Shown here one piece after another: positions 3,641 to 51,752 of a DNA stretch of 64,000 nucleotides. The DNA is from Neocallimastix lanati (nom. inval.) (lineage: Eukaryota; Neocallimastigomycota; Neocallimastigomycetes; Neocallimastigales; Neocallimastigaceae). Numbering within the stretch: position 1 is the first letter of the stretch; every line of letters starts with the position of its first letter. The translations under genes were made by a program, and so were the position numbers. The stretch spans positions 494,501-558,500 of the forward strand of contig JACVTC010000074.1 of NCBI GenBank assembly GCA_016946835.1, written 5' to 3'. The notes under the pieces were generated by a model. That model was not told the origin of the DNA and made no database searches. It saw only the letters and a program-made list of their open reading frames with translations.

Positions 3641-3918
3641 TTTATATAAAATCTAATAAATTTTGATTTGATAATAGTTATAATTTATATTAAATGATTT
3701 TTTAAAGAAAAATAAAAATTAAAATAAATAAAACTTTTTTTATTTTATTTTTTATATTTATTATTATTATTTCATGTATAGTTTTGTTTTTAATTAAACG
3801 TTTAAAAAATATTCTTATTAATATTAATTTTATCATACTGAATATTAAATTTAAAAATTAAAATGTTTTTTTTTTTTTTTTCTTTATTGATGAATTAATT
3901 TACAATACCACACCAATG

Positions 3919-4013
3919 TAGATTATGAAGATATAAAGATCATGTTTAAAAAGGACACTAATAAATCTCATAAATCAGTATATTTAATTAATTATAAAAA
4001 TAACACACCAATG
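3919..4013. mobile_element. 95-bp insertion with 10-bp direct repeat
   Basis: The insertion interrupts the last dockerin exon of copy A. It is flanked by CACACCAATG at 3909-3918 and 4004-4013, and is absent from all four paralogous exons, which are 98 nt long. No inverted ends are visible. A 10-bp target duplication is compatible with a small MULE-type or other transposon fragment. Confidence 0.75.
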
Positions 4014-4530
4014 ACCATCTTCAACACCCCATTGACCATTTTCATCTATTTGTGCTATAGCTTTAGTTTCCATACAACATGGATATCCTATAATAATGAA
4101 ATTTTAGATACAATTTAATATTTATTTAATTTAATTAAATTTTATAGATATATATAGAAATATATATTTTTATTATTATTTACCTAATGAAAAGGACAAG
4201 CACTATAAGAAATAAAGAAAAAATTATAATATTGTTAGTATTTGTCAATTCGTCAACTTTAATTTTATATTACATTATTTATAAATATAAAATTTCAATT
4301 CCAATACTAAAACTATTATAAAAATTAATATGAAAATATTTTATTAAATTTAATTTTTTTTTTTTTAATATACAATACAATAAAACAAAAATCATCATTT
4401 TCATATCCCCAGTTTCCTGATTCATCAGTTGTAACAACTTCTTTTGTTTTTAAACAACATGGATATCCTTTTATATTAAATGAAAAAAAAGTATATTTAA
4501 TTTTTTTTTTAATAAATAAAATTAATGTTA

Positions 4531-4532
4531 AA

Positions 4533-4563
<31 letters not shown>

Positions 4564-4690
4564 TAAAAATAAAAATAAAAAAATAAAAATAAAAATAAAA
4601 ATAAAAATAAAAATAAAAATAAAAAAATAAAAATAAAAATAAAAATAAAAATAAAAATAAAAATAAAAATAAAAAAATAAAAATAAATAT
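4531..4690. repeat. (AAAAT)n microsatellite inside an intron
   Basis: The pentamer AAAAT is repeated about 30 times with rare A insertions. It lies in the intron between the 16-nt microexon and the first dockerin exon of copy A. The same intron carries shorter versions in B2 (about 23990-24030) and C (about 38215-38280). Confidence 0.9.
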
Positions 4691-6221
4691 TAATATAAAT
4701 ATAAATATAAATATAAAATAAATTATTGTAAATATTTACCACTTGGATGAAAGCACTTAATTATTATGTTTTAAATTTAAAATGATTTAATACATATTAT
4801 ATTTATATTTAAAACGTTTATTTATAAGTATTTATTTGTTTATATGTATTTTATATATTATATATATTTTATTTCTTTAAATTATGAATTATTCAATAGA
4901 TAATACTACTTACAATGTTGGAATATTTCTTTCTATTATTATTATAATTTTCAAGAATAATTCCCGTTAAAACAGAATATTTAGTACTTTCTTCATTTAT
5001 AATATTATTTAATTCGTTACATTTATTACTATAAACAATTTCACATTTTTTTTCTAATTCTTCTTCAGTGATATTATCAAGGATATCTTTTTGATGACAT
5101 CCTGTATAATTGCCTAAAATATTATTCAGTCTTACATTATTATATCTTGAATTTAAATTAAGATATGCTGTTTTATTATAATTATCAATAAATCCAAATG
5201 ATTTATATTTTTTAGCAATGGAACAGACAGATTGATTAGCAAATTGACGTTTATATAATGTTTAACATTTATCTGATTTAAATGTTTCTCTCTTATTTAA
5301 AAGTTCACTATCTTTCATATTTTTAAATTCAAATTGGCATTCCTCATTCTCTTTAACTTCTTTTTCACATTCTTCAATTGACTTTTCTACAGTGGTACAA
5401 TATCCAAATTCACTATGACATCCATTTTCTATGAGACATTTCTCCCAAGGATCATTTTCGAAAGAAATGCATTCTCCTTCTTTGGAACAACATCCACTAG
5501 AACAAGAGGCATTTACTCCTCTACCACATTTAACATTAGTATCAATATATTGCCAAGGGAAAGCCTTTTGGATACCACTGTGGCTTTATGATACCATAGG
5601 ATTGGGAAAGTTGTATTTCGCCAAGTGGCGTGTCATAAAAATTCAAATTTTACTAATACGCCACTTGGTGAAATTTAACTCTCCCTATTATTTGAAATAT
5701 TAAATAAAAATACATTTATTATATTTATTTAATAATCAATATTATTTAATTTTTTTTAATATTTAAATATTTTCTTTGAGAAAATAAATAAAATCAATAC
5801 TAATAACATTTATTCATTCTTTTTTAATATTTAAATAATATCATTATTAATAATATTTTATTTTTTTTTTATAATAATTTTCAATTGTTGAAATGAAACC
5901 TAGTTAAAAGCCACATTATAATAATACGCCACTTGGCGAAATGCAACTTGGTGAAATGCCTCTAATACTGTATTACAATGTGGCTTATAAAAATAAATGA
6001 ATATGAAAGGGTTAAATATTTTAAAATAATAAATTATAAAGTAAAATAAAAAAAAAATACAAAAAATAATAAAATAAAAAATAAAAAATAAAAATAAATA
6101 ATAAAATAAAATAAAAAATAAAAAAAAAGAATAAAGTAAAATATAAAATAAAAAAATAGATTAAAACAAAAAAAATTAAAATATAAAAAATAAAATTTTT
6201 AATTTAAAATATATATAATAA

Positions 6222-7655
6222 ATGGATGATCAATTAGAAATAAGTGAAACTAGTAAAGAAAAAAATCAAATCATTGTAAACAGAAAATATAAATTTAATT
6301 TACGGTATATAACGAATAATACAAAAGTATTCAAATGTACTGAATATAAAACATTTAAAACATGTAAATCTTACATTGTTCTAAATGATAATAATAAAGT
6401 AATAAAATATGAAAACAAACATACTCATCCAGGAAAAGAATATGATGCATCTGTATCAATAGTAAAACATAAAATGAAAAATGAAATTAGAAAAACATCA
6501 ATCCCATATGATATAAATCCAAAACATATGTATAATGAAATATCTGAAGAAATTGGATTGATATGCCCTGTTGATATGCCTTGAATATAATTCAATTAAA
6601 TCCCAAATATCAAAATATATAAAAAAACAACTACCTCCTGATATATCAAAATTTAATGAAATTCCAGATGAATCTGAATATTATATAAACGAAAGAGATG
6701 AAAATTTTATGATATTCAAAAATTCTAATATTATAATTTTTTAATCACCATTCCAAACAGAATTGTTCATTAAATACAACGAAAATATGTTTGCTGATGG
6801 TACATTTTATATTGCACCAATATTTAGTTATCAAGTGTTTATAATAAGAGTATATGCTCCAGAAATAAATAGTTTTTACACTACATCATTATCTATATTA
6901 AATAATAAAGAACAAGCAACCTATTAATTGTTATTTGAAGAATTAAAAAAGAATGCAAGCAAATATAATAATAATATTATAGTTAAACCAAAAATTTTCA
7001 TTGTGATTTTGAAAAAGGTATATCCAATGCTGCCATTAAAATATTTCCTAATATTACTATTAAATATTGTGTATGGCATTATAAAAGATCGTTAGAAGTT
7101 CAAAAAAATAAATTATGTTATAATGAAGTTGAAAATAATAATAAAATTTATTTGTTTTATAATGCTATTACAAATTTTCCTTTTATAAATCCTGAATATA
7201 TATTTGATATTTATAATTATATTAAAATTATATGTAAAATATATAATTATTTCCATTTTTTAAATTTTTTGGAATTTTTTGGAATATTTTAATAAGACTT
7301 ATTTATATAAATATGATATTTAATAAATTATTATAACGATATAAATCACATAACAAATAATGCTTCAGAATCTTTTAACAATTACTTAAAAAAATTGTTT
7401 TACAAAAAACCTTCTTTCTATGAATTGATTTATCATTTAAAAAGAGAAGAATCTTAATCTTACAATAATTACAAAAGGAAAATTGAAGGAGTTTGGAAAA
7501 AAAAAAGAAGGAAGAATATTAATAAAAACTGATGAAATCAATGATTTAATTAAAAAATACAAAAAAAAGGAATCAGAATTAATTAATAAAAAATGTGATA
7601 AAAATGATATCATTGATTTATGGTATAAATGTTTATTAGAATTAAACAAGCTCTA
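6222..7655 (+). pseudogene. MULE transposase with FLYWCH-type zinc finger, degraded
   Basis: The N-terminus (6222-6560) encodes a FLYWCH-like finger: FKCTEYKTFKTCKSYIVL, then a THPG stretch with C-x10-C and H-x-H spacing. A MULE transposase core follows, including MFADGTFYIAP (first catalytic Asp context) and FHCDFEKGISNA, and then the C-terminal CVWHYKRSLE region and a TNNASESFNNYL segment. The frame is broken by a 13-bp tandem duplication near 6558-6583, TAA stops near 6742 and 6924, a frameshift near 7010, and several more after 7260. The order and motifs match the copy at 43757-45197. It is non-functional as it stands. Confidence 0.88.
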
Positions 7656-8100
7656 AATTTATAAATAATAATTAACTAGAATATAGTTTAAATTATATTA
7701 ATATCAATATTATTATATTTTATTAATATCAATATCATTATATTTTATTAATATCAATATCAATATTTAAATTTTATTAATAATAAATATTTAATATTAT
7801 AATAAATTTTATTAATAATAAATATTTAATATTATAATAAATTTTATTTTATAATTTAATTAATTTAATAATAAAATATAAAATTTTATTTATTTTATTT
7901 AAATAAAATAAAATGGAAAGGTTTTATTATTAAATATTTAATAATAAAATATAATAATAAAATGAAAATTAATTAAATAATTGAAAATAAATAAAAATAA
8001 AATAAAATTCTTAACGGAAAACTTATTTATTCTTTTATTTATTATTTTTTTAGTTTTTATTTTATTTTTTTAATGCTAAAATACAATAAATAAAAATATA
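7656..8100. other. AT-rich transposon interior with short direct repeats
   Basis: Short tandem motifs built on TTTTATTAATATCAATATCA repeat after the transposase end. The same motif follows the other MULE transposase (45340-46100), which supports both being members of one transposon family. No gene is seen. Confidence 0.7.
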
Positions 8101-8234
8101 CGTTGAAAATAGTGGCGCATTACATATATTATACACATTGTACAAAATTTTATGATGATTATACATAAATTATATCGAAATGCTTTACATTCGTCGAAAT
8201 GTACCGCATTATACATTAAATTTATATATGTTAT

Positions 8235-8800: not shown

Positions 8801-8969
8801 TTATTTTTGTTAATAAAAAGAATAATATTCATATATTAAACTTTATTTCTAACAATTATTATTAATTTTAAATTAAAAATTTAATTTAACTTTTTAATTA
8901 TTATTAAATTAAATTAAATTAAATTTTTAATTTAAAATTCATAGATCAAAAAAAATTTAAATTAAAAAT

Positions 8970-10201: not shown

Positions 10202-10233
<32 letters not shown>

Positions 10234-10268
10234 AGAAAAAAAAACTTTTGTTGTTTCAATTTTTATTT

Positions 10269-10305
<37 letters not shown>

Positions 10306-10345: not shown

Positions 10346-10382
<37 letters not shown>

Positions 10383-13804: not shown

Positions 13805-16421
13805 TTAATTTTTAATACCACACCATTGACCATTTTCAACACCCCATTTACCATCTTTATCCATATATACAACAGCTTTAGTTTCCATACAACATGGATA
13901 TCCTATAATAATGAAATTTTAGATACAATTTAATATTTATTTAGTTTAATTAAATTTTATAGATATATATAGAAATATATATTTTTATTATTATTTACCT
14001 AATGAAAAGGACCAGCACTATATGATTAGAAATGAATAAAAAATTATATTACAATTAGTATTTATCAATATATTAATTTTAATATTACAATAAATAGATA
14101 ATACTACTTACGAAATTGGAACATTTTTTTTTATTATTTTTATAATTTTCAAGAATAGGTTCCATTAAAACAGAATATTTAGTACTTTCTTCATTTATAA
14201 TATTATTTAATTCGTTACATTTATCACTATAAATATATTCACATTTTTTTTCTAATTCTTCTTCAGTGATATTATCAAGGATACCTTTTTGATGACATTC
14301 CATATAAGTGTGTAGAACATCTGTCAATCTTATAGTATTATAACTTAATGTTGAATTAAGATATGATGTTCTATTATAATTATCAATAAATCCAAATGAT
14401 TTATATTTTTTAGCAATGGAACAGACAGATTGATTAGCAAATTGACGTTTATAGAATGTTTGACATTTATCTGATTTAAATGTTTCTCCTTTACTTAAAA
14501 TTTCACTATTTTTCATATTTTTAAATTCAAATTGGCATTCTTCATTCTCTTTAACTTCTTTTTCGCATTCTTCAATCGCCTTTTCTACAGTAGTACAATA
14601 TCCAAATTCACTTTGACATCCATTTTCAATGAGACATTTCTCCCAAGGATCATTTTCGAAAGAAATGCATTCTCCTTCCTTAGAACAACATCCACTAGAA
14701 CAAGAGGCATTTACTCCTCTACCACATTTAACATTAGTATCATCTGGTGAATAAATACTACGCTTACCATTATTAACAAAGTAATTAGGGGTTTTAATGC
14801 CTGGAATAATTTCTAAATTATTAATAGCATCTTTGAAAGACAATTGTTGTAATTTTTTACTCATTGATTCAGTAGTGTAATTATCTGGAAATTCAGACAT
14901 AATTAATGCAGCAATACCTGATACAATAGGAGCTGAACATGATGTTCCACCAGTCTCGATAAATGATTCACTACTTCCATCTGTAAAATTAGCACAGGTT
15001 ACTTCTACTGGTGCAAATATATCAACACAATCTCCGTAATTAGAATTATATGCTTTGAAATAACCGTTTTCATTAATAGCATCGGTTATACCTCCAACAG
15101 TTATAGATTTACGATATCCTGAAAAAGAATCGAAATTTCCACTTTCCTTACTTTTACATACATTTTTATTATCATTACCAACAGCATTAACAATAACAAT
15201 TCCTTTTTCATTTACAGATTTAAGCATATCATCAATTAATTCCAAATAGTATGGCCATTGTATAGATAAATTAACAACAGTTTTATGAGGAGTAGCATGA
15301 TCTCTAATATAACCTAATGCAAAATATGTAGAAATTAAAGTATCATCACAAGTAATCATGTGTAAATTGGCTTTTTTAGCTACTCCACTATGTCTACCTC
15401 CAGCAACTGATAAATCCATAATACCATGTCCTGGATAATAACCTTCCATATAGGTACAATTCTTTTTTTGTTTTTCTGTGGTTTCATTAATTCCATTTTG
15501 GGTAGCTAAGGCATCACAAGTTACTGTTCTTTCATAAGGTGTTCCTTCATAAGTATCAAAATCAATATGATCAGCTATTAAACCTCCATCAATGGCATAA
15601 ATATCGATTCCTTGACCTGCAGTACTTGGATAATAATAATAATTATCATCAATACGTTTACCTTCATAATAATAAGGAGATTGAGAAATTAATGGTAAAT
15701 GAATAAAAGTAGTATTTTTAATTTCTTTAACATTTTGAACACGGACATCCTTCCAACCGGTTTCTCTTTTGATAGCTTCAAGATTATAATATTCAGGTTT
15801 ATTATGTTTATTAAAAGTTTCTTCACTTCTTTTATTCAAATTACGTTTTACTTCTACAGGAGTATCCATTTGATCATTTCCAATAATATTTAATTTTTCA
15901 TTTTTTTTACAGTATAATACATTTTTCATATTACAAACAGTTTTGGCAGTTTCTTCTGAGAGATAAGCACTTACAAGTTTGTAATTTAAAACATCAGTAA
16001 TATGCATAACCAAATTTGATTCAAATGGAATATATTCAGAAGAAGTAGAATTATCAGATTTATTCAATTCCAATGAGCGTTTATAAAATCTATTGTCTTG
16101 TTTATTTATGAATAAAAATTTTTTTCTTTGTTCATTACGTTTTTCTTTTGGAAGAGACTCTAATTCATCAAGTTTATTATCTAATTCACCATTTTCTAAG
16201 ATATATGTTTCTTTCTTTTCTTCAATGACATCATAAATATCGTTCATTCTATCATTGACTAATTCATCAATTTTATTTCGAACTGTCTGACTTTCTTCAT
16301 TATAATATTTATCTGATTTATTTCTTAAAATAGCCACAATATAATAAGAATTTTCAGAATGAACGAAAGACACACAGTTCAAAAAAACTAGAATTATCAA
16401 TGAAAAAAAGTAATTATTCAT
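13805..16421 (-). CDS. Secreted subtilisin-like (S8) protease with chitin-binding module and dockerin, copy B1
   Basis: There are three exons: 14112-16421, 13999-14017 (19 nt) and 13805-13902, giving about 808 residues. The start gives a signal peptide (residues 1-22, ending SFVHS). A long propeptide-like region follows. The S8 triad is Asp278 (AIDGG), His332 (PGHGIMD) and Ser494 (GGTSCSAP), with oxyanion Asn416 (AVGN). Residues 566-609 form a hevein-like chitin-binding module (CG...CSSGCCS.EGEC...C...GCQ.EFGYC). A Cys-rich region of unknown fold follows. Exons 2-3 encode one fungal dockerin: CWSFSLGYPCC, then [11 protein letters not shown] and stop. Introns are 94 and 96 nt with GTAAGT/GTAAAT donors and AG acceptors. 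The frame continues 8 codons into intron 1, so unspliced reading would miss the dockerin. Predicted role: extracellular endopeptidase docked to the fungal cellulosome. Substrate is unknown. It is the best-preserved copy in the array. Confidence 0.92.
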
Positions 16422-17790: not shown

Positions 17791-18207
17791 GTTTGGATAA
17801 TAAATAAAAAAAATTTTATTTATTAATATTATTAATTATAGTAATAAAAAAAAGAAAATTCTTTTTATTCTTTTATTACTATTAATTCTTTTTTTTTTTT
17901 AAAAAAAAAAAAAAAATTAAATATAAAGTTTTTAAGGAAAATTTAAGGTAACTCAAAAAATGATGAAAAGAAAAATTTGTACGGAACAATAATAAGAAAA
18001 AAAAAATCGAAAATATATCATTATTACTTGCTACTTTATTTAAAAAAAAAATTTAACTTATTTATTATTTATTATTTAATTATTATTCAATTATTCAATT
18101 ATTTATTATTTATTAATAAAAACTCTTTTATTATTATTTATTATTATTATTATTTTATTTATTATTTATTATTCAATTATTCTATTATTATTTATTATTA
18201 TTGATCA

Positions 18208-19030
18208 CGTGGTTTTATATATTATTATTTGAATACCAAAAACATGCCAAAACTAATCAAAACTGCTATAAAATTCCAATTCACATATATATGTTTTAAT
18301 CTAAATTAATGCGAAAATGACATTCAAATACATTATTATTTTTGGAGGTATATTTATATATATGAATGATATAGCTTGATATATTTAATTAAATGATATA
18401 GATTGATGGTTTATATATTGTTATAGATAGTATATATATATATTAAATTGATATATCTTAAGTGTGCGTATATACTGTATTATGTTTCAACTTTTACTAT
18501 TATTATTAATGCAGGTTTGAGATAGCATATTGTCATGATTGATATTATCACCATAATTTTGAACAGCATATATGAGACATATTTCAACTATGTTTATCGT
18601 ATATACATTTATGATCAAGTATCTTTCATATATTATATAAACTAGCTGCAGAATACACCAAATATATACTAATATAGCTAATAATTGTAACAACTTATCA
18701 AACTATAATATATCAAATACGTGTTGTCAGAGTTCGCTGAATATGTATGTTCACAACATTGTTTGCATATAAGTTGTTGCAAGGTTTTATGCAATATACC
18801 TATCATATATATATATATATCAACTACATTGTTTAAATATTAATATAAACTATTTTATTTATATATATTAATATCAATTGGAACCTATTTTAATATTGGT
18901 ATTTGGATGCCTGTTTATACCAAAACTAGAACGAAAACAATTCTAATTAGCAACCCTAAAAACACATATGATTGATATATAATGATAGTAGTTTAAGGCA
19001 TCCAAATATCCTATCATATTAAACCAATAA
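18208..19030. mobile_element. Putative DNA element with imperfect inverted ends, copy 1
   Basis: The left end (TGGTTTTATATATTATTA then TTTGAATACC) and the reverse complement of the right end (TTGGTTTAATATGATAGG then ATATTTGGATGCC) align imperfectly over about 30 bp. An internal perfect 11-bp inverted repeat (ATTTGGATGCC/GGCATCCAAAT) lies near 18902-19008. The first about 690 bp recur at 29089-29785 with very high identity. A 68-codon minus-strand frame (18487-18693) is open in both copies but resembles nothing I recognise. No transposase is present. Confidence 0.55.
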
Positions 19031-23458: not shown

Positions 23459-23998
23459 TTAATTTGGAATACCACACCAATGATCATCTTCAACACCCCA
23501 TTGACCATTTTCATCTATTTGTGCTATAGCTATTGTTTCCATACAACATGGATATCCTATAATAATGAAATTTTAGATACAATTTAATATTTATTTAAGT
23601 AAATTTTATAGATATATATAAATACTGTATATTTTTATTATTATTTACCTAATGAAGTGAACCAGCACTATATGATAAAAAATGAATAAAAAATTATAAT
23701 ATTATTAGTATTTGTCAAATTTAATATTATAATATAAATGTAAATTTTTAATTCTAATATCAAAATTAGAATAAAATTTAATATGAAAATATTTTATTAA
23801 ATTTTAATTTTTTTTTTTTTTTTTTTTTTTTAATATACAATACCATAAAACAGTAATCATTATTTTCATATCCCCAGTTTCCTGATTCATCAGTTTTAAC
23901 AACTTCTTTTGTATTTAAACAGCAATGATAACCTATTAAATTAAAGGAAAAAAAAAGTATTATTAATTATTTTTTTAATAAAAAAAAAAAAAAATAAA

Positions 23999-24029
<31 letters not shown>

Positions 24030-25533
24030 TATTTATAAATATAAATATAAATATAAAATAAATTATAAATATTTACCACTTGAATGTAAGCACTTAATTA
24101 TTATATTTAAAGTTTAAAATGATTTAATATATATAATATTTATTTTAAAACGTTTATTTTTAATTATTGTTCATAAATATATTTATATATTATATATATA
24201 AATATTATTTCTTTAAATTATAAATTATTAAATAAATAATACTACTTACGCCTTCGTAACATTTTTTTCTATTATTACTATAATTTTCAAGAAGAGGTTT
24301 CATTAAAACAGAATATTTGCTATTTTCTTGGTATATAATATAAGGTAATTTTTTACATTTACTACTATTAATTATTTTACATTTTTTTTCTAATTCTTCT
24401 TCATTGATATCTTGGTAACATTCCATATAAGTATCTAAAATATCTTTCAATCTTACATTGTTATATTTTAAAGTTGAATTATGATATGTTGTTCTATTAT
24501 AATTATCAATAAATCCAAATGATTTATATTTCTTAGCAATGGAACAGACAGATTGATTAGCAAATTGACGTTTATAGAATGTTTGACATTTATCTGATTT
24601 AAATGTTTCTCCCTTACTTAAAATTTCACTTTTAATTTTAATATTTTTAAATTCAATTTGGCATTCCTCATTTTCTTTAATTTCTTTTTCACATTCTTCA
24701 ATTGCCTTTTCTACAGTGGTACAATATCCAAATTCACTTTGACATCCATTTTCAATGAGACATTTCTCCCAAGGATCATTTTCGAAAGAAATGCATTCTC
24801 CTTCCTTAGAACAACATCCACTAGAACAAGAGGCATTTACTCCTTCACCACATTTAACATTAGTATCATCTGGTGAATAAATACTACGCTTACCATTATT
24901 AACAAAATAATTAGGGGTATTAAAGGTTTTACTATATCCTAAATTATTAATAGCATCTTTGAAAGACAATTGTTGTAACTTTTCCTTCATTGATTCATTG
25001 GTGTAATTACCTGGAAATTCAGACATAATTAATGCAGCAATACCTACTACAATAGGAGCTGAACATGAAGTTCCTCCAGATTCAATAAATGATTCAGTAC
25101 TTCCATTCGTAGGACCAGCACTGGTAACTTCTATTGGTGCAAATATATCAACACAATCTCCATAATTCGAATTATGCGCTTTAAAATAACCATTTTCATT
25201 AATAGCCGTGGTTATACCTCCAACAGTAATAGATTTACGATATCCTGAAAAAGAACTGAATTTTCCACTTTCCTTACTTTCACATACATTATTATTTTCA
25301 TTACCAGCAGCATCAACAACAATAATTCCTTTATCATTTAAAGAATTAAGAATATCTTCAATTTTATACAAATATTTGTACCATCCTAAAGATAAATTAA
25401 CAACAGTTTTATAAGATTTAGCATTATTTCTAATATAAGCTAATGCAAAATAGGTGGAAATTAAAGTATCATCACAGGTAATCATGTGTAAATTGGCTTT
25501 TTTAGCTACTCCACTAAACTTTCCTCCAGCAAC
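23459..25533 (-). pseudogene. Subtilisin-like protease with two dockerins, copy B2 (5'-truncated)
   Basis: Five exons are visible: 24250-25533, 24077-24092 (16 nt), 23844-23932 (89 nt), 23649-23667 (19 nt) and 23459-23556 (98 nt). All are in frame with GT/AG borders. Encoded in order are the C-terminal part of the S8 domain (oxyanion Asn in AAGNENN, Ser in GGTSCSAP), the hevein-like module, the Cys-rich region, dockerin 1 (CLHSSGYHCC ... WGYENNDYCFM) and dockerin 2 (CWFTSLGYPCC ... WGVEDDHWCGIPN). Homology stops at 25533 within VAGGKFSG. Upstream is the AT repeat, so signal peptide, prodomain and catalytic Asp/His are gone. A Met at 25485 opens a long frame, but the product could not be a secreted active protease. 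It has no stop codons, which suggests recent truncation or use as a reservoir. Confidence 0.88.
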
Positions 25534-28917: not shown

Positions 28918-29088
28918 CTTTATTTAAAAAAAAATTTTATTTATTTATTATTTATTATTCAATTATTATTCAATTATTCAATTATTCAATTATTTATTAT
29001 TTATTAATAAATACTCTTTTATTATTATTTATTATTATTATTATTTTATTTATTATTCAATTATTCTATTATTATTTATTATTATTGA

Positions 29089-29785
29089 TCACGTGGTTTT
29101 ATATATTATATTTGAATACCAAAAACATGCCAAAACTAATCAAAACTGCTATAAAATTCCAATTCACATATATATGGTTTTATGCTAATTTAATGCGAAA
29201 ATGGCATTCAAATACATTATTATTTTTGGAGGTATATTTATATATATGAATGATATAGTTTGATAAATTTAATTAAATGATATAGCTTGATGGTTTATAT
29301 ATTGTTATAGATAGTATATATATATATATTGAATTAATATATCATAAGTGTGCGTATATGCTGTACTATGTTGCAACTTTTATTATTATTATTAATGCAG
29401 GTTTGAGATAGCATATTGTTATGATTGATATTATCACCATAATTTTGAACAGCATATATGAGATATATTTCAACTATGTTTATCATATATACATTTATGA
29501 TCAAGTATCTTTCATATATTATATAAACTAGCTGTAGAATACACCAAATATATACTAATATAGCTAATAATTGTAACAACTTATCAAACTATAATATATC
29601 AAATACGTGTTGTCAGAGTTCGCTGAATATGTATGTTCACAACATTGTTTGCATATAAGTTGTTGCAAGGTTTTATGCAATATACCTATCATATATATAT
29701 ATATATATATCAACTACATTGCATAAATATTAACATAAACTATTTTGCTTAAATATATTAATATCAATTGGAACCTATTTTAATA
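29089..29785. mobile_element. Putative DNA element, copy 2 (right end missing)
   Basis: It is nearly identical to 18208-18900, including the open 81-codon minus-strand frame at 29334-29579. The similarity stops after GGAACCTATTTTAATA, where the GGTAACAC-module sequence resumes. The inverted right end found in copy 1 is lost. Confidence 0.7.
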
Positions 29786-30064
29786 TATCATTATTACTAG
29801 TTACTTTATTTAAAAAAGAATTTTTTCTTATTTATTATTTATTATTCAATTATTATTCAATTATTTATTATTTATTAATAAATACTCTTTTATTATTATT
29901 TATTATTATTATTATTTAATTATTATTAAAATTAATGTAAACATAAAATTTATAACATAAATTTTATGTTATGTATATATGTAAATAATTTATATATTAA
30001 TTGTGTTTTATTTTTTTTTTAAATTATTTTATTTAATTATAAAAATAATTTACACAAATAATTA
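29786..30064. other. AT-rich sequence containing the empty site of the element at 54903
   Basis: A short heptamer stretch is followed by ACATAAATTTTATGTTATGT and TATGTAAATAATTTATA. The same sequence flanks both sides of the MULE-like element at 54903-56100 and so shows what that target looked like before insertion. No gene is seen. Confidence 0.6.
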
Positions 30065-33844: not shown

Positions 33845-35430
33845 TTGAAATTTAAGTATACAAATAAATTAATCAAGTTGGAAGAATTGGATCTCATATT
33901 TCAAAATTTAAATCTTGAAGATCAAATGGAACAACAACCTAATCCAGCTCCTCAACTGAAGATTATCAACGACCCTCCCTTATTCTCTGGAACTACGAAA
34001 GACCTCGATGGATTTTTTGACAAGGATAAAGTTAGCTATCGAGGCAGATCCACGAAGGTTTCCCGATGATAGAAGGAAAGTCATGTTCGTTATCTCATAT
34101 TTTACTGGAAGAGCACTTAACTGGGCTTCTTGCTTGCGGGGGTATAATAACGAAGTTCTTAGAAACTATGAGAACTTCATTAATGAACTAAGAAGAAATT
34201 TTGGCGACCATGACATTGATGTTGCTGTCGCTAATGGGAAACTTAACAATATTCGTCAGTCCAAGTATGGCCACGTTATGGAATACATCACTGCATTCCA
34301 GAAGATAAGCCAATACTCGAACTTTAATGAGTCCGCAAAAATCTTTATGTATATTAAAGGACTCCATCCCAAGATGAGAGAACATTTAGCTCTCGTAAAT
34401 CCAAATCCCAACAACTTAGAGCAGCTATTTAGGGAATCTGTGAATATAGAAAGTCTTACCAAGAGAAATGACATCCAAGAATATTACTTAACTCATCAAG
34501 ACCGTAGAAGTTATAATCAAGACGATCCAATGGATGTGGATCTTTATCGCATTAAAAAAGGTCAAAAAGTCACAAGATATTTTCCATCACACAACAAGAA
34601 CTATATTGAAAACGAATCAAATATTGAAGAAAAAAGAAAGAAGAGACTATGTTTTAAATGTGGTGAAGATGGATACATGCAATTTAATTGTCCAAATAGA
34701 ATAAAACCAAAAAAACTTCAAAATAATCAATAAATGAAGATCCCTCTTCTTCTGCCACTTCTATATCTACCTCTTCTTCTGTTAGGAGAATTAAGAAAGT
34801 TGTAAAGTTTGATAATATCTACATAGTTTTGGATATTATTAAAAATGAATTCGATGAGGTTAAAGCAAAGGTTCTCATTGATTCCGGCTTTGATATTAAC
34901 TGTATACATCCAGAATTTGCTAGAGTGAATAACATTAAACTTATAAATATTGATAACTCCTTTAAAGTTGCTGGTTTGGGTTATGGTTTATCTACTGTGA
35001 AGAAAATTACCGAGAAATGTATTCTTCGTTTTAAGAATCATTATGAAATAATTCAATTACATTCTCTTCGTATCCATGATGTAGATATCATTTTAGGACT
35101 CTCTTGGATTGAAAAACATTCCCCTATTAACTACCATGATTCAAAGAAAATCTCTTTCAGTTCAGGATACTGTGCTCGACACTGTAATGTAGGAAAAAGA
35201 AATAGAAAAAACAAGAATAAAAAGTAGTTAAACAAAATTTCTACTAAAGGAAAGGAACCATATGAAGAAGTTTCCTTAAAAAAGGAAAAAATTAATCCTA
35301 AGCGTAAGTATTCCTTTGAATCTGATTCCGACATGAATTCTGATGAAGAAATTACGATTAGAGGTCGTCGTACTCCTATTAAAACTTGTTGTGAAAAAGA
35401 AGAACTCAATGATTTAAAAATTTTTGTATA
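33845..35430 (+). pseudogene. Ty3/gypsy Gag and aspartic protease, truncated
   Basis: The Gag begins in one frame (PPLFSGTTKDLDGFFD) and shifts at about 34020 into a long frame (34008-34733) with the retrotransposon capsid signature (FTGRALNWA, NFINELRRNFGD, YIKGLHPKMREHL). It ends in a knuckle CFKCGEDGYMQFNC where the expected His is Tyr. A second frame (34829-35227) is a retropepsin: VLIDSGFDINCI (active-site DSG) and DVDIILGLSWIEKH. After about 35430 no RT, RNase H or integrase is found. Base composition is distinctly less AT-rich than the surroundings, which suggests a relatively young insertion. Confidence 0.9.
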
Positions 35431-37673: not shown

Positions 37674-40600
37674 TTAATTTGGAATACCACACCAATGACC
37701 ATCTTCAGCACCCCATTGACCATCTTTATCTACATATACTACATTGTTAGTTTTCATACAACATGGATATCCTATAGTAATGAAATTTTAGTTATAATTT
37801 AATATTTATTTAATTATTTTAATTTTATAGATATATATAGAAATATATATATTTATTATAATATACCCAATGAAATGGACCAGCACTATATGATAAGCAA
37901 TAAAGAAAAAATTATAAAACTATTAGTATTTGTCAATTTATCAACTTTTATTTTATATTACATTATTTATAAAATATAAAATTTTAATTCCAATACTAAA
38001 ACTCTAATAAAAATTAATATAAAAATATTTATTAAATTAAAAAAAAATTTTTTTTTTTTATTTTTTTTAATATACAATACAATAAAACAAAAATCTTTAT
38101 TTTCATATCCCCAGTTTCCTGATACATCAGTTGTAACAACTTCTTTTGTTTTTAAACAGCACGGATAACCTATTAAATTAAAGGGATAAAAAAAGTATTG
38201 TTAGTTATTTTTTTAATAAATAAAAATAAAAACAAAACCAAAAACAAAATTAAAAATAATAATAAAAATATAAATAAAATAAATTATTATAAATATTTAC
38301 CACTTGGATGAAAGCACTTAATTATTATATTTAAAGTTTAAAATGATTTTATATATTTAATATTTATATTTAAAATATTTATTTATAAGTATTATTAATA
38401 TATGTATTTATATATTATTTATATATATATTTTATTATTTTTTTAAATTATGAATTATTCAATAGATAATACTACTTACGCCTTTGGAACATTTCTTTTT
38501 ATTATTAGTATAATTTTTATGAATAGGATCCATTAAAACAGAGTATCTCTTATTTTCTTCATATATAACATAAGGTAATTGTTTGCATTTATTACTATTA
38601 ATTATTTTACATTTTTTTTCTAATTCTTTTTCATTGATATTATCAGGGATACTATCTTGATGACATTCCATATAAGTATCTATAATATCTTTCAATCTTA
38701 CATTATTATATCTTAAAGTTGAATTAAGATATGTTGTTTTATTATAATTATCAATAAATCCAAATGATTTATATTTCTTTGCAATGGAACAGACAGATTG
38801 ATTAGCAAATTGACGTTTATAGAATGTTTGACATTTATCTGATTTAAATGTTTCTCCTTTACTTAAAATTTCACTATTTTTCATATTTTTAAATTCAAAT
38901 TGGCATTCCTCATTCTCTTTAACTTCTTTTTCGCATTCTTCAATCGCCTTTTCTACAGTGGTACAATATCCAAATTCACTTTGACATCCATTTTCAATGA
39001 GACATTTCTCCCAAGGATCATTTTCGAAAGAAATGCATTCTCCTTCCTTAGAACAACATCCACTAGAACAAGAGGCATTTACTCCTTCACCACAACATTA
39101 GTATCATCTGGTGAATAAATACTACGCTTACCATTATTAACAAAATAATTAGGAGTATTAAAGGTTTTACTATATCCTAAATTATTAATAGTATCTTTGA
39201 AAGATAATTGTAGTAACTTTTCTTTCATTGTTTCAGTGGTGTAATTATCTGGAAATTCAGACATAATTAATGCGGCAATGCCTACTACAATAGGAGCTGA
39301 ACATGAAGTTCCTCCAGTTTCAATAAATGATTCACCACTTCCATCTGTGAAATTAGCAAATATATCAACACAATCTCCGTAATTAGAATTATATGTTTTA
39401 AAATAACCATTTTCATTAATATCCGTGGTTATACCTCCAACAGTAATAGATTTACGATATCCTGAAAAAGACTCGAAATTTGGATTTTCTTTACTCTCAC
39501 ATATATTTCTATTTTCGTTACCGGCAGCATCAATAATAACAATTCCTTTTTTATTTAAAGATTTAAGCATACCATTAACCAAATCCAAATAGTACGGCCA
39601 TCTTAAAGATAAATTAACAACTGTTTTATGAGGAATAGCATGATCTCTAATATAACCTAATGCATAATAGGTGGAAATTAAAGTATCATCACAGGTAATC
39701 ATGTGTAAATTGGCTTTTTTTAGCTACTCCACTATACTTTCCTCCTGCAACTGATAAATCCATAATTCCATGTCCTGGATAATAACCTTCCTTATAGGTA
39801 CAATTATTTTTTTGTTCTTCTGTGGTTTCATTAATTCCAGTTTCTGTAGCTAAGGCATCACAAGTTACTGTTCTTTCATAAGGTGTTCCTTCATAAGTAT
39901 CAAAATCAATATGGTCAACTATTAAACCTCCATCAATGGCATAAATATCAATTCCTTGACCTGCAGAACTTGGATAATAATAATTATTATCAATACGTTT
40001 ACATTCATAATAATAAGGTGATTGAGATATTAATTGTAAATAATTAAAATTGGAGACATTTGAAAATTCTTGAACACTGACTTCCTTCCAACCAGTTTCT
40101 CTCTGGATAGCTTCAATATTATAATATTTAGTTTCATCATATTTACTAAAATTTTCTTCACTTCTTTTATTCAAATTAAGTTTTACTTCTACAGGAGTAT
40201 CCATTTGGGCATTTCCAATAATATTTAATTTTTCATTTTTTTTACAGTATAATACATTTTTCATATTACAAACAATTTTTGCAGTTTCTTCTGAGAGATA
40301 AGCACTTACAAGTTTGTAATTTAGAACATCAGTAATATGCATAACCAAGTTTGATTCAAATGGAATATAGTCAGAAGAAGTAGAATTATCAGATTTATTT
40401 AACTCCAATGAGCGTTTATAAAATCTATTGTTTTGTTTATTTAAGAATAAAAATTTTTTTCTTTGTTCATTACGTTTTTCCTTCGGAAGAGACTCTAATT
40501 CATCAAGTTTTTTATCTAATTCACTATTTTCTAAGATATAGGATTCTTTCTTTTTTTCAATGACATCATAGATATCGTTCATTCTATCATTGACTAATTC

Positions 40601-40756
40601 ATCAATTTTATTTCGAACTGTTTAACTATCTTCATTATAATATTTATCCGATTTATTTCTTAAAATAGCCACAATATAATAAGAATTTTCAGAATAAACG
40701 AAAGACACGTAGTTCAAAAAAACTAGAACTATTAATATAAAAAAATAATTATTCAT
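37674..40756 (-). pseudogene. Subtilisin-like protease with two dockerins, copy C (full length, disabled)
   Basis: Exons are 38480-40756, 38301-38316 (16 nt), 38081-38169 (89 nt), 37867-37885 (19 nt) and 37674-37771 (98 nt). The signal peptide start at 40756 and all domains are present: prodomain, S8 domain (Asp in AIDGG, His in PGHGIMD, Ser in GGTSCSAP), hevein-like module, Cys-rich region, dockerin 1 (CFHPSGYPCC ... WGYENKDFCFI) and dockerin 2 (CWSISLGYPCC ... [13 protein letters not shown]). Four lesions separate it from B1/D: a TAA replacing Gln of SQTV (about 40622-40624); one extra T near 39715-39722 shifting the frame after the His motif; a 21-nt in-frame deletion removing PVEVTCA before NFTDG; and a 4-nt deletion near 39092 at the first Cys of the chitin-binding module. 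It is a pseudogene unless stops are bypassed. Confidence 0.92.
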
Positions 40757-43560: not shown

Positions 43561-43756
43561 AAAAATAAAAAATAAAAATAAAAATAAATAAATAAAATAG
43601 TAAATAAAGAAATAATAAATAATTAATAATTAAATAATTATTTAAATAATTATACAATTAATTAAAAAAAGGTTTATTATTTTAAATATTAAAAAAAAAA
43701 GTTTCAAAGCATTTAAAAATATATTAAAATATTTTATTGAAAAATTTTAATTATCA

Positions 43757-45197
43757 ATGGAAGACAATATAAAAATTGAAATAATAAGTGAAACAAATCG
43801 AGGAAATGAACAAATTATTATTAATAAAAAACACAAATTTAATTTTTCATTTCAAAGGAAAGATAAATCAAAAATTTATAGATGCACTGAAATATAAGAC
43901 TTTAAATAAATGTAAATCTTTAATTATTTTAAATGATAAAAAGGAGGTTTTAAAATATAAAAGTTTACATAACCATCTCGAAAAAGAAATTGATGTATCT
44001 ATTATCAGTAGCAAAGCATAAAATTAAGGAAGAAATTAAGAAAAATTCAATTCCTATGGATATAAAACCTAAACATATATTTAATGCCGTTTCTCAAGAA
44101 ATGGGACTTATATGTCCCGAATATAGTACAATTAGATCCCAAATAATAAGAAATATAAATAAACAATTTCCTCCAAACATAAAAAGTTTTGATGATATTC
44201 CCATTGAATCAAAATATTATAAAACGAAAAGAAATGAAAATTTTATGATATTTAAAAATACTGATCTAATAATCTTTCAATCACCATTCCAAGCATATTT
44301 ATTTTCGAATTATCATAAAAATATATTTGCGGACGGTACATTTTATGCAGCACCGAAATTTAGTTATCAGTTATTTATAACAAGAACTTATGTTGGGGAA
44401 TTTAATATGTTTTACACTACTTCCATTTCTATATTAAAAAATAAAAAACAATCTACATATGAAACATTATTTAAAGAATTAAAAAAAATGTAAATAAATT
44501 TAGGAGTAATACATTAATTACTACAATTAATTTTCATTGTGATTTTGAACAAGGTATATCTAATGCCGCAAAAAAAGTTTTTCCCAATATAAATATTAAA
44601 TATTGTGTTTGGCATTACAAAAGATCATTAGAAAAACAAAAAAAATATATCATGTTATCATGAAGTGAAGAATAATAATGATGTATATATTTATTATAAA
44701 GCTATTTCGAACTTACCGTTTATAAACCTTAACTATATATTTGATATTTATATTATAATAAAAAGAATTTGTCAAAAAAAAAAGTATAATAATTTTCTGC
44801 AATTTTTAGAATATTTTAATAAAAATTATTTACTTAAGTATAATGGTAATAATTGGAATTATTATGAAAATATAGAGCATTTAACAAACAATGCATCAGA
44901 ATCTTATAATAGCTACTTAAATAATATATTTCCAAATAAACCTTTATTTTATAAATTAATATATATATTAAAAGAAGAAGAAAACTTATCTTATAATGAT
45001 TATCAAAGGAGAACTAAAGGAAATTGGAAAAAAAAGTAAAAAATATTTAGTGCAACTGATGAAATTAAAATTTTAATTGAAAATTACAAAGGTAAGGAAA
45101 TAAATTTATTTTGTAATGGATGCAACAAAAATGAATTATTTAAATTATGGAAAGAATGTTTAATTGATTTAAACGATATAAATATTAATTTAAAATA
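43757..45197 (+). pseudogene. FLYWCH/MULE transposase of MULE 2, frameshifted
   Basis: The start at 43757 gives MEDNIKIEIISETNRGNEQ. The FLYWCH-like finger (YRCTE, NKCKSLIIL, HNH) is split by frameshifts near 43888 and 44005. The transposase core is open at 43990-44493 with NIFADGTFYAAP. A one-base loss near 44490 is followed by FHCDFEQGISNAA and YCVWHYKRSLE. The C-terminal part is open at 44665-45039 (TNNASESYNSYL), then continues after an A-run shift to 45197. Only about five small indels separate it from a continuous frame, so it is younger than the copy at 6222. Confidence 0.9.
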
Positions 45198-45377
45198 AAT
45201 AATCTTAATTTAAAAAAATGCTAGAAAAATACAAATTTATTTACCTATTGTGTTTATTTAATAATCTTAATAGAAATTATCTTTTAGTTATTTTTATTAA
45301 TTTATAACTAAAACCGATTTATTTGATACTAGTTAAAATTTTATTAATATCAATATCAATATTATATAATTATAAAT

Positions 45378-46002
45378 TGTAAAGATTTAATAAATCTTTA
45401 ATACATTAAATAGCTTAATTTTTCATACAATTAATTTATTTAATGTATATGAATTATTTTTTTAATATAAAATTTATTGAAATAAAATTTAATTATTTTT
45501 TTAATTGAAAATATTTTTTAATTAGTTTAGTTAATTTAGTTTAGTTTTAAATAGTTAAATATTAATTTAGGAATAATCTTAAATAGTTAATATTTATAAA
45601 AATAGTTTTTCAATATTAAATATATAATTAAAATTATTATAAGTATTAAAATAATAAATAAAATAAAGAGTTTAAAAAATTAATTTTAGTTTTAGTAAAT
45701 TAATAAATAATAAAAAATTATTAATTAAAAAACCTTTTGTTTATAAATAAATAGTTTTATATATATTATTAAATAACATCATATATTAATATTGTAATAA
45801 GAAAAAATATAAATACATGTAATTTTTCTTAATTTAATCGATGTATTAGTTATTAACTATTTTACAGTTAATAACATAAAAGAAGTTTATAATTAATAAA
45901 AGAATTTATTAATAAAAGAAATTACTTTAATTTTATTTGTTTAAATTGTAGTGTTTTTTTTTATTGTTATAATCTGTTTTTTTTATTGACGGATTCATTA
46001 CA
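45378..46002 (+). mobile_element. Solo LTR family 4 nested in MULE 2
   Basis: It starts TGTAAAGATTTAATAAATCT and ends CGGATTCATTACA, with TAAAT on both sides (45373-45377, 46003-46007). The target was a short ATTTTATTAATATCAATATC tandem repeat that resumes after the insertion. It matches 32800-33414. Confidence 0.92.
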
Positions 46003-46509
46003 TAAATTTTATTAATATCAATATCAATATTATATAATTAAAAATTTTATTAATATCAATATCAATATTATATTATTATAAATTTTATTAATATCAATAT
46101 ACTTTTCAAAATTAATTATGTTATTAAAAATATTAAATTCAATAAAAGATTTTTATTATTTTATTAAAATTATAATTGTTATTATTATATTTTAATAATA
46201 ATTGATTCATATTGATCAAACATTATAAATATTACTATGCAAATAATTAATTATTTTAATAGGATCAATTATTCAACTCTTATTGTTTTAATTTTTAATT
46301 CTTATATCATTTAAATTAATATATATATATCGTTTATGAAAATATGAATTATAAATAATTAAAATTATTTACTTTTCATTTAAATTTTTTTATTTACTAT
46401 AATAAAATATAATAATTAAAAGACAAACGTTATTATAACTAAATTTTTTTTTTTAGAAAAATAAATGAAAAAAAATTAAAATATATAAGATTCCTATATA
46501 TATAAAATA

Positions 46510-47360
46510 ATTATTATATCTTATTTTATTTTATTTTATTTTATTCAATCTGTACTTTATACTTATATTCTACTATTTTATTTTATTTTATTTTATTTTA
46601 TTTTATTCAATCTGTACTTTATACTTATATTCTACTATTTTATTTTATTTTATTTTATTTTATTTTATTTTATTTTATTTTATTTTATTTTATTTTATTT
46701 TATTTTATTTTATTTTATTTATTTTATTTTATTTTATTTTATTTTATTTTATTTTATTTTATTTTATTTTATTTTATTTTATTTTATTTTATTTTATTTT
46801 ATTTTATTTTATTTTATTTTATTTTATTTTATTTTATTTTATTTTATTTTATTTTATTTATTTTATTTTATTTTATTTTATTTTATTTTATTTTATTTTA
46901 TTTTATTTTATTTTATTTTATTTTATTTTATTTTATTTTATTTTATTTTATTTTATTTTATTTTATTTTATTTTATTTTATTTTATTTTATTTTATTTTA
47001 TTTATTTTATTTTATTTTATTTTATTTTATTTTATTTTATTTTATTTATTTTATTTTATTTTATTTTATTTTATTTTATTTTATTTTATTTTATTTTATT
47101 TTATTTTATTTTATTTATTTTATTTTATTTATTTATTTTATTTTATTTTATTTTATTTTATTTTATTTTATTTTATTTTATTTTATTTTATTTTATTTTA
47201 TTTTATTTTATTTTATTTTATTTTATTTTATTTTATTTTATTTTATTATATTTTATTTTATTTTATTTTATTTTATTTTATTTTATTTTATTCAATCTGT
47301 ACTTATATTTATGTTTTTTATTTTATTTTATTTTATTTCATTTTATTTTATTTTATTCAA
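46510..47360. repeat. (TTTTA)n satellite-like array, about 850 bp
   Basis: The array is almost pure TTTTA, with occasional TTTA phase slips and three to four copies of a TTCAATCTGTAC...TATTCTAC spacer near its edges. It lies inside MULE 2 near the right end. Confidence 0.97.
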
Positions 47361-48159
47361 TCTGTATTTTCTGTTGATAATATAAACAAGGTATTAATGT
47401 ATTAATAATAATTAATAATATTTAAAATAAAATAAAAAAAGTATAATAATTATATTATATATATAGTAATTATATATATATATATATATTTTTATTTAAT
47501 TCTCTAAAAAAAAATTTTTAGTCATAATAAACATCTTAATTATTTTTATTATTATTTAAAAATTTATTTATTCATTTATAATTTATTTATTTATTTATTT
47601 ATTTATTACATTACAATACGCCATGTTTTCCAAAATGCACTACAACAAAATACAAATTTATGTAATAAAAATTTTCGAAATGACACACCCCCAAATTTAA
47701 AAATAATGATTTAAATATGTGGCTTGAATTATAAATTTTGTAACATAAATCAATATTTTAGTTATAATCTAATATTTATATTTATATAGTTATTTAAATA
47801 ATTCCTTATAAATAATCATTATTAATATTTATATTTATTTAATGGTTTATTTTAATCATAAGAACAAGTAATTAAATAGTTAATTATAACAAAATAACAT
47901 AAAAATAAAGTATTTATATGAATTAAGAGAAGTTAAAGAAATGTAAATGTAACTTTGTGTGTAATTGAAAGTGTATGAAAGTTGTTAGATAGTTTTCAAA
48001 TATTTAAAATCTCAATAATAAATTAAATAAATAAATAATACTAAAATAAATTTAATAAATAAACACCAACAAAAGTACATCGTACTTTTGAGTTGTATAA
48101 CATAAGTCAAATCTTTAAATATAATTATTTCCATTATTAATAATTGTAAATTAAAAATT

Positions 48160-49151
48160 TATTTATCAAAAATATGTCTTCGTTTCCTTTTTTTTTTACT
48201 CGTATATTATATAATATTATGCATTATAAATTGTCAAAAATAAAAATAATTTATATCTTTATGTTAACAAAAATACTTATGAATAATTCATTAAACACGA
48301 AATATTATATAGAAGAAAAAAAATAATTTGTTGATTTGATACTATTTCAAAAAATATAAAAAAAATGAATGGAAAACCCATTATAAAATAAGAAAAAGTA
48401 AATTATTTAACTGGTATTAAGAACTTTATGTTATATATTAAAAAAAATAATAATAAAAAAATAAAAATAAAAGAAAAAAAAAATTTTTTTTTTTTTATTT
48501 TATAATTATTATCGACTGAATAATAAAAAAAATTTAATAATTATGTTATCCAAAAAGGTGTTTCTAATATCTTTTTAAAAAGATTGTTATTAATACAATA
48601 AATCATGAATCATATATTATGAAACATAAATAATAAATAATAAATAATGAATAATAAATAATAAATAATAAATAATAATTAAAAAATAATAAATAATTAA
48701 ATAATTTGATAGAATATGTGAAATATTAATATGTTTTTAATTTAACTCAAATTTTAAATTCACTTTATTATAGAAAATTTAAAATTTAACTATGTTGTTT
48801 AGCTTTTTTTTTCATTATTATTGCTATTGATAATATATTTTTATGAATTTATTATTAAAAAAATTATATATTAATAAGTTAACATTTTTAGTTTCTTTTG
48901 TTATTGGTAATTTCAATATTTATCTAAAATTTAATAATTTTTGCTTTGATAAATGTAATAATTTATATTATATGTTTTTTTGAAAAAAAAAATGAAAAAT
49001 AATTTTTATTTTTTATTTTTTTATTTTTTATTTTTATTATTTTTTCATACTTATTTTTGCTTTTTAATTATATGATCAAAAAAAATTTTTTTTGATATTA
49101 ATTATATCAAATTTAAAATTTAAAATAATTTTTTTTTTCTTAATTGATGAA
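48160..49151. other. 3' flank of protease copy D
   Basis: It begins with a diverged copy of the duplicated block (GGAAAACCCATTATAAAATA, AATCATGAATCATATATTAT) and continues into the flank shared by all copies (for example CTATTGATAATATATTTTTA near 48833). No gene is supported. Confidence 0.7.
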
Positions 49152-51752
49152 TTAATTTAGAATACCACACCAATGACCATCTTCAGAACCCCATTGACCA
49201 TCTTTATCTACATATAATACATTTTTAGTTTCCATACAACATGGAAATCCTATAATATTGAAAATTTAGATAAATTTAATATATATATAATTTAACTAAA
49301 TTTTATAGATATATATAAATATTTATTTTAATTATCATTTACCTAATGAAAGAGACCAGCACTATATGATAAAAAATGAAGAAAAAATTATATTATTATT
49401 AGTATTTATCAATTTTAATATTATAATCATTAAAATAATGCTACTTACGACTTTGGAACATTTTTCTAAATTATTAGTATAGTTTTCAAGAATAGGGTTC
49501 ATTAAAACAGAATATTTTCTATTTTCTTCGTTTATAATATTATTGAATTGAAAACATTTATTTGTATTAACTTTTTCACATTTTTTTTTTAATTCCTCTT
49601 TTTTGATATTATCAGGGATACTATTATAATGGCATTCCATGTAATTGCTTAAAAAATCTCTCAGTCTTACAGAATTATATATTGAATTTGAATTAATATA
49701 TGTTGTTTTATTATAATTATCAATAAATCCAAATGATTTATATTTTTTAGCAATGGAACAGACAGATTGATTAGCAAATTGACGTTTATAGAATGTTTGA
49801 CATTTATCTGATTCAAATGTTTCTCCCTTTTTTAAAGTTTCACTTGCATTCATATTTTCTTTAATTTCAAATTGGCATTCTTCATTCTCTTTAACTTCTT
49901 TTTCACATTCTTCAATCGCCTTTTCTATAGTGGTACAATATCCAAATTCACTTTGACATCCATTTTCAATGAGACATTTCTCCCAAGGACCATTTTCGAA
50001 AGAAATGTATTCTCCTTCCTCGGAACAACATCCACTAGAACAAGAGGCATTTACTCCTTCACCACATTTAACATTAGTATCATCTTGTGAATAAATACTA
50101 CGCTTACCATTATTAACAAAATAATTAGGAGTATTAAAGGTTTTACTATATCCTAAATTATTAATAGCATCTTTGAAAGACAATTGTTGTAACTTTTTCC
50201 TCATAGACTCAGTGGTGTAATTTTCTGGAAATTCAGACATAATTAATGCAGCAATTCCTGATACAATAGGAGCTGAACATGAGGTTCCTCCAGTTTCGAT
50301 AAATGATTCACTACTTCCATTCGTAAAATCAGCACAGGTAACTTCGGCTGGTGCAAATATATCAACACAATCTCCGTAATTAGAATTATATGCTTTAAAA
50401 TAACCATTTTCATTAATAGCATTGGTTATAGCTCCAACAGTTATAGATTTACGATATCCTGAAAAAGAACTGAAATTTGGACTTTCCTTACTTTCACATA
50501 TATTTCTATTTTCATTACCAGCAGCATCAATAATAACAATTCCTTTTTCATTTAAAGCTTTAAGCATATCATCAACCAAATCCAAATAGTACGGCCATCT
50601 TAAAGATAAATTAACAATAGTTTTATGAGGAGTAGCATGATCTTTAATATAACCTAATGCAAAATATGTGGAAATTAAAAAATCATCACAGGTGATCATG
50701 TGTAAATTGGCTTTTTTAGCTACTCCACTATATTTTCCTCCTGCAACTGATAAATCCATAATACCATGATATGGATAATAACCTTCCATATAGGTACAAT
50801 TCTTTTTTTGTTCTTCTTTGGTTTCATTAATTCCAGTTACTGTAGCAAAGGCATCACAAGTTACTGTTCTTTCATAAGAAGTTCCTTCATAAGTATCAAA
50901 ATCAATATGATCAGCTATTAAACCATCATCAATGGCATAAATATCAATTCCTTGACCTGCAGAACTTGGATAATAATAATTTTTATCAATACTTTTACCT
51001 TCATAATAATAAGGTAATTGAGAAATTAATTGTAAATGATTAATAGTGGAAACATTTGAAAGATCTTGAACACTGACTTCCTTCCAACCAGTTTCTCTTT
51101 TGATAGCTTCAAGATTATAATATTCATGTTTATTATTATTGTTAAAATATTCTTCACTTCTTTTATTCAAATTAAATTTTGCTTCCACAGGAGTATTCAT
51201 TTGATCATTTCCAATGATATTTAATTTTTCATTTTTTTTACAGTATAATACATTTTTCATATTACAAACAGTTTTGGCAGTTTCTTCTGAAAGATAAGCA
51301 CTTACAAGTTTGTAATTTAAAACATCAGAAATATGCATAACCAAGTTTGATTCAAATGGAATATATTCAGAAGAAGTAGAATTATCAGATTTATTCAACT
51401 CCAATGAACGTTTGTAGAATCCATTGTCTTGTTTATTTATGAATAAAAATTTTTTTCTTTGTTCATTACGTTTTTCTTTTGGAAGAGACTCTAATTCATC
51501 AAGTTTATTATCTAATTCACCATTTTCTAAAGTATAGGTTTCTTTCTTTTCTTCTATTACATCATAGATATCGTTCATTCTATCATTGACTAATTCATCA
51601 ATTTTATTTCGAACTGTTTGACTTTCTTTATAATAATATTTATCTGATTTATTTCTTAAAATAGCCACAATATAATAAGAATTTTCAGAATAAACGAAAG
51701 ACACACAGTTCAAAAAAATTAGAACTATCAATGTAAAAAAGTAATTATTCAT
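49152..51752 (-). CDS. Secreted subtilisin-like (S8) protease with chitin-binding module and dockerin, copy D
   Basis: There are three exons: 49449-51752, 49343-49361 (19 nt) and 49152-49249, giving about 806 residues with no stop or frameshift. Introns are 87 and 93 nt. The domain order is the same as B1 with a single dockerin: CWSLSLGFPCC (Tyr to Phe), then [14 protein letters not shown]8 motifs are kept, but the contexts drift. The catalytic Asp is in AIDDG instead of AIDGG. The catalytic His follows Tyr (YPYHGIMD) instead of Gly. The hevein-like module has lost one Cys (EGEC to EGEY; codon at 50007-50009). It could be an active protease with weakened chitin binding, or an early pseudogene. 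The frame runs on about 28 codons into intron 1 if unspliced. Confidence 0.9.

Follow-up and report, generated by a model that had tools for sequence, protein, structure and literature searches.

Dockerin-bearing subtilases in a minus-strand gene array of Neocallimastix lanati: likely cellulosomal proteases with a hevein-like module of doubtful chitin affinity

What kind of protein is encoded by the repeated subtilase genes of the gut fungus Neocallimastix lanati, and to what would such proteins be anchored? We address this question for a stretch of 64,000 nucleotides (nt; positions 494501-558500 of contig JACVTC010000074.1), hereafter the window, which holds an array of subtilase (Peptidase_S8 or S8) genes ending in fungal dockerins. 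A preliminary description, made from the sequence, had presented them as chitin-binding proteases tethered to the cellulosome. With some reserve, we hold it probable that their products are proteinase-K-type subtilases with fungal dockerins at the C-terminus, secreted as zymogens and docked on the cellulosome, where they digest protein on plant fiber. Searches beyond the window covered a 199-megabase (Mb) assembly of 762 contigs; passages of PMC8561657 describe a PacBio genome of this species of 200.97 Mb in 970 contigs.

The array of one gene family on the minus strand is real. A tblastn search with copy B1 finds five family loci in the window, all on that strand and within 3592-51752, and the whole-genome search adds a sixth, L010, outside the window to its left (contig positions 488738-491074), which is open and 93% identical. 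B1, E, and L010 are open, and A, C, and D' are broken. Where five loci plus a relic had been counted on one strand, the strand holds, whereas the count becomes five in the window including relic A, with the sixth outside. The earlier view of the copies themselves stands, with two open ones in the window (B1 and E), a 5'-truncated C, a frameshifted D', and a fragment A, as does that of duplication with decay, given three open and three broken array loci. B1 and E share 84% identity across 774 residues. The whole-genome search also recovered an open relative at 81% on another contig (L012), whose stop is the natural frame end and in which the public protein P0002 is contained exactly, and two further relatives at 54-55%, both open (L013 and L014). 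Over the whole of exon 1, the ratio of nonsynonymous to synonymous substitution rates (dN/dS) lies at 0.37-0.56 in ten comparisons. Open array copies give 0.50-0.56 when compared with one another and 0.37-0.40 when compared with L013 or L014, and the pair L013 and L014 gives 0.53; selection is purifying but loose. Because of the B1/E identity and this purifying selection, the resemblance across the array is not due to chance.

The anchor is a fungal dockerin. Spliced B1 matches the corresponding Pfam profile, CBM_10 (PF02013), with an E-value (E) of 7.6e-15 (55.5 bits against a cut-off of 23), and matches also occur in the tails of E, C, and D'. Used as a query against solved fungal dockerins, the double dockerin of D' retrieves 2j4m (E 1.2e-14) and 1e8p (E 1.3e-8). 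The preliminary description had made its case hang on such a profile match of the C-terminal tail, which was indeed obtained above the cut-off; as it had held, a true fungal dockerin on a subtilase makes a cellulosomal place likely, and docking to the fungal cellulosome is likely from dockerin homology. The single architecture that it had assigned to all copies survives in part, namely for S8 and dockerin (both by Pfam). The dockerin number varies from one (B1, E, and L010) to two (A, C, and D'), all three two-dockerin array copies being broken, and the chitin-binding label fails at the CBM18 cut-off, as discussed below. A genome survey for S8 gave 70 matches, from which 30 loci, corresponding to 28 distinct places, were fetched and read with flanks of 1.5 kilobases (kb). 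Dockerins are present at 10 of these 28 places, comprising the six array loci, L012, L013, L014, and L038.

The protease itself looks intact. Spliced B1 matches Peptidase_S8 (PF00082) with E 1.5e-18 and 67.6 bits against a cut-off of 21.8 (exon 1 alone, E 1.4e-18), and its catalytic set is complete, with D278, H332, S494, and the oxyanion residue N416 conserved in 92, 95, 95, and 94 of 95 aligned rows, respectively. In the AlphaFold2 model of B1 exon 1 (mean predicted local distance difference test score, pLDDT, 87.7), the S8 domain adopts the subtilase fold. By its sequence, then, the domain is of the proteinase-K type and appears to be a competent protease. Neither the spliced protein nor the propeptide taken by itself matched the Inhibitor_I9 profile (PF05922) with an E of 5 or less, in searches where the HMMER filters drop most weak matches. 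The order of I9 propeptides is beta-alpha-beta-beta-alpha-beta, and the elements in the predicted structure of the B1 propeptide (25-31, 45-68, 138-144, 147-154, 156-163, and 168-173) could fit it if an insert is allowed for. Secretion is suggested by a signal-peptide-like start, judged by eye, and zymogen control would operate through the long propeptide.

Taken together, these features predict proteases that leave the cell as zymogens; the dockerin would plug them into the fungal cellulosome, and the docked enzyme would digest protein on plant fiber, a substrate that we infer. Should the docked subtilases prove active, the fungal cellulosome would double as a proteolytic machine, and one could directly test whether the dockerin-bearing serpins encoded in the same genome provide self-restraint or a shield.

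These serpins give 11 matches at 10 places. At five of them (L050-L053, within 36 kb, and L055), three dockerins each stand ahead of the serpin domain, with an in-frame stop in L053. At L049 (C18:367427-368506), the serpin frame follows several canonical CBM18 repeats, a combination that the literature passages covered do not name. Dockerins, the only modules searched for there, were not found at the remaining four places (L047, L048, L054, and the fragment L056/L057). In this genome, the protease and inhibitor families alike come in dockerin-anchored and CBM18-anchored forms. The dockerin-bearing serpins would be able to bind the same scaffolds and restrain the docked subtilases, and docked proteases and docked serpins may meet. 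We tentatively put forward as a possibility that the two compete for the same docking sites so that the make-up of a given cellulosome sets its proteolytic activity, that a parallel pair, S8 proteases and a serpin with canonical CBM18 modules, is wired to chitin, and that celpins (the dockerin-bearing serpins of gut fungi) mainly restrain the fungus' own docked subtilases rather than foreign proteases. Paired protease-inhibitor docking is an open, testable idea.

Critically speaking, several points weigh against a docked, fiber-digesting protease. At 18 of the 28 distinct S8 loci, the stretch read lacks a dockerin, and docking is therefore no general trait of the S8 family. Term searches of the main text of a gut-fungus metaproteome paper (PMC8026616) and of a cellulosome-localization paper (PMC8262932) turned up no protease described as a cellulosome component. 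Passages of PMC8778642 report an S08 expansion and celpins for the gut-fungus phylum, and elsewhere the same paper puts the S08A copy number lowest in two groups including gut fungi. Furthermore, the open array copies, with a dN/dS of 0.50-0.56 among themselves, show moderate constraint only; the ratio rises to 0.85 in the hevein-like module for E versus B1 or L010, with few changes (7 and 2), and up to 0.77 in the Cys-rich region. Lastly, the serpin link to these proteases is drawn from co-occurrence in the genome. Constraint on the hevein-like module is mixed, as it is unchanged between B1 and L010, and in the comparison of B1 with L013 no other part is under such strong constraint (dN/dS 0.15, against 0.36-0.46 in other parts; dS is near 1, so these values are rough).

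Passages of a review (PMC12484212) bring up processing as a role of cellulosomal proteases, and the docked subtilase could be such a processing enzyme, its task being to trim scaffoldins or other proteins of the cellulosome and not to digest plant or microbial protein as food. The dockerin would indeed set it beside such proteins. Proteinase-K-type enzymes, on the other hand, are usually of broad specificity, and we regard a dedicated trimming function as unlikely.

According to the preliminary description, a chitin-binding module would place the docked enzyme on chitin, where it could remodel the fungus' own wall or attack other fungi. The hevein-like module does follow the Cys order of hevein, with eight Cys in B1 and seven in E, and may weakly resemble hevein by fold. 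Its scores with the CBM18 profile (PF00187), however, are 8.1 bits in B1 and 9.6 bits in E against a cut-off of 27.8, and both proteins carry Glu at the two positions equivalent to hevein 21 and 23, which we take to be the sugar-stacking aromatics (tryptophans in hevein). Using a Cys pattern blind to aromatics, we counted a module at the place following S8 in 75 of the 95 aligned rows (81 modules), with an aromatic residue at position 21 in 16, at position 23 in 12, and at both in just 4. The 20 rows without a module by this pattern include P0003 and E, which lost a Cys. Further downstream, 34 modules in 24 of those proteins have an aromatic at position 21 in 15 cases, at position 23 in 15, and at both in 11; the pair is rarer beside S8 than downstream, and many downstream modules are without it too. 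At least 150 CBM18 copies in the genome exceed the PF00187 cut-off, and none of the matches listed (150 of 1081 candidates) falls in the window. As some relatives keep a more canonical module beside S8 (L028, L033, and L034; P0090 and P0091), the module is presumably hevein-derived and drifted. The sequence offers no ground for chitin binding by this module, and neither the label nor the proposed action at chitin or fungal walls is supported; a chitin-directed protease is decidedly improbable. Most likely, the module is a disulfide-bonded spacer or a protein-contact module. More generally, a Cys pattern alone is a poor basis for a chitin-binding claim in gut fungi, hevein-like modules without the aromatic pair being common beside S8.

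That the array is decaying and has little function, with three of its six copies broken and the others under relaxed constraint (the 0.50-0.56 mentioned above), is very unlikely in view of three open array copies, the open L012, L013, and L014 elsewhere, and the retained catalytic residues. The array turns over by duplication and decay. B1 shares around 3.4 kb, flanks included, with E and with D', and mobile-element DNA lies between the array copies.

The exon joins of the B1 family loci constitute a predicted GT/AG gene model. Downstream of exon 1, which measures 2.3 kb in open copies, micro-exons (16 nt in dockerin 1, otherwise 19 nt) and exons 89-98 nt long follow, bordered by GT/AG. An intron splits each dockerin behind the Gly among its opening residues (CWSxxLG for dockerin 2). 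The genome matches the split-dockerin pattern 12 times, with seven of these matches in the protease clade (at the six array loci and in L012), and the reversed control not once; the CBM_10 matches listed (150 of 1440 candidates) span 1-36, 2-36, or 2-35 of the 36-position profile and are hence unsplit there. Intron-split dockerins with 16- and 19-nt micro-exons, such as those within 3592-51752, look rare in this genome. Since L013 and L014 are intronless relatives, whose frame runs uninterrupted through the dockerin split sites, the dockerin introns must have been gained or lost within the family.

As for the broken copies, C begins mid-S8, and the part matching the first 338 of the 770 B1 exon-1 residues is gone, together with the catalytic Asp and His. 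The 1-nt lesion of D' sits in a run of A and could for that reason be a sequencing error, the 4-nt lesion less easily so. The NCBI 'subtilisin-like protein' P0003 of Neocallimastix lanati is the gene model of this broken locus, which it matches exactly in frame-changing pieces (residues 1-297, 298-484, 486-679, 685-714, and 721-752); the dockerin joins at its end are the same as in the D' splice model. By these frame changes, P0003 bypasses the lesions of D'. The dockerin remnants of A were detected with a home-made profile.

Coordinates of the array copies and their parts in the window
Feature	Position	Strand	Remarks
A, relic	3895-5544	minus	tblastn span 3.6-5.5 kb
A exon 1 fragment	4895-5544	minus	in-frame stop
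A dockerin 1 remnant	~4385-4468	minus	
A dockerin 2	within 3987-4103	minus	
A extra dockerin end	3898-3939	minus	weak, E 0.073
B1	13805-16421	minus	open; tblastn span 13.5-16.4 kb
B1 exon 1, 770 residues	14112-16421	minus	open; signal-peptide-like start, propeptide, S8, hevein-like module, Cys-rich region
B1 catalytic Asp278 to His332	15426-15590	minus	codons 15588-15590 and 15426-15428
B1 oxyanion Asn416 to catalytic Ser494	14940-15176	minus	codons 15174-15176 and 14940-14942
B1 hevein-like module	14595-14726	minus	residues 566-609, eight Cys
B1 Cys-rich helical region	14121-14588	minus	residues 612-767, without Pfam match
B1 exon 2, 19-nt micro-exon	13999-14017	minus	dockerin start; GT/AG junctions; same joins end P0003
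B1 exon 3	13805-13902	minus	remainder of single dockerin and stop; CBM_10 E 7.6e-15 (spliced protein)
C, 5'-truncated	23459-25533	minus	tblastn span 23.2-25.5 kb
C exon 1 remainder	24250-25533	minus	
C dockerin 1 exons	24077-24092, 23844-23932	minus	
C dockerin 2 exons	23649-23667, 23459-23556	minus	
D', broken	37674-40756	minus	tblastn span 37.4-40.8 kb
D' exon 1	38480-40756	minus	1-nt and 4-nt frameshifting lesions
D' dockerin 1 exons	38301-38316, 38081-38169	minus	
D' dockerin 2 exons	37867-37885, 37674-37771	minus	
E ('D' in the preliminary description)	49152-51752	minus	open; tblastn span 48.9-51.8 kb
E exon 1	49449-51752	minus	open; hevein-like module one Cys short (Cys to Tyr)
E exon 2, 19-nt micro-exon	49343-49361	minus	
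E exon 3	49152-49249	minus	dockerin and stop; CBM_10 E 9.1e-13

Around these genes, relic A adjoins what by eye is inserted mobile DNA, and gag and aspartyl protease frames of a Ty3-type retroelement (Pfam) lie at 33960-35227. Two copies of one repeat, 71% alike and with transposase-like fragments by eye, occupy 6023-7958 and 43562-45496, the second containing a weak ZSWIM RNaseH-like match at 43954 that stays below its cut-off. A direct repeat of 0.87 kb (18033-18896 and 28917-29786) is 94% identical, exceeding the protease copies around it. At 58000-62000, where the GC content is higher, short frames resemble Ty3 and Ty1/copia remnants by eye, and a simple repeat at 46489-47405 keeps three overlapping plus-strand frames of about 290-300 residues open, likely an artifact rather than genes.

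Neither proteinase K nor the fungal cuticle-degrading proteases are known to bear dockerins. The array proteins also differ from these S8 enzymes (3f7o and 3f7m) in their long propeptide without Pfam I9 match. P0003 and its relatives P0004, P0032, and P0081 likewise combine S8 with fungal dockerin(s), according to precomputed Pfam matches (PF00082 and PF02013); by eye, the dockerins of P0032 (Anaeromyces) and P0081 are joined to S8 without the Cys-rich region. Among the open-access titles and abstract starts listed, none treats this S8 family, its hevein-like module, or celpin pairing, a weak absence with supplements and most subscription papers outside that scope. As a kind, gut-fungus proteases and serpins with dockerins have been published before, and both are among the dockerin-bearing transcripts of Orpinomyces in passages of PMC4672494. 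Celpins share the docking module and are inhibitors instead of enzymes; in the relevant passages of PMC8778642, their probable role is protection from proteinases in the environment. The dockerins of bacterial cellulosomes diverge from the fungal ones, and fungal scaffoldins have no sequence homology to bacterial parts, as stated in passages of PMC8262932. What the array proteins would share with the bacterial subtilisin-like proteases covered in parts of PMC12484212 is an S8 protease as cellulosome component, and the same review describes a serpin of a bacterial cellulosome with inhibitory action on subtilisin-like proteases.
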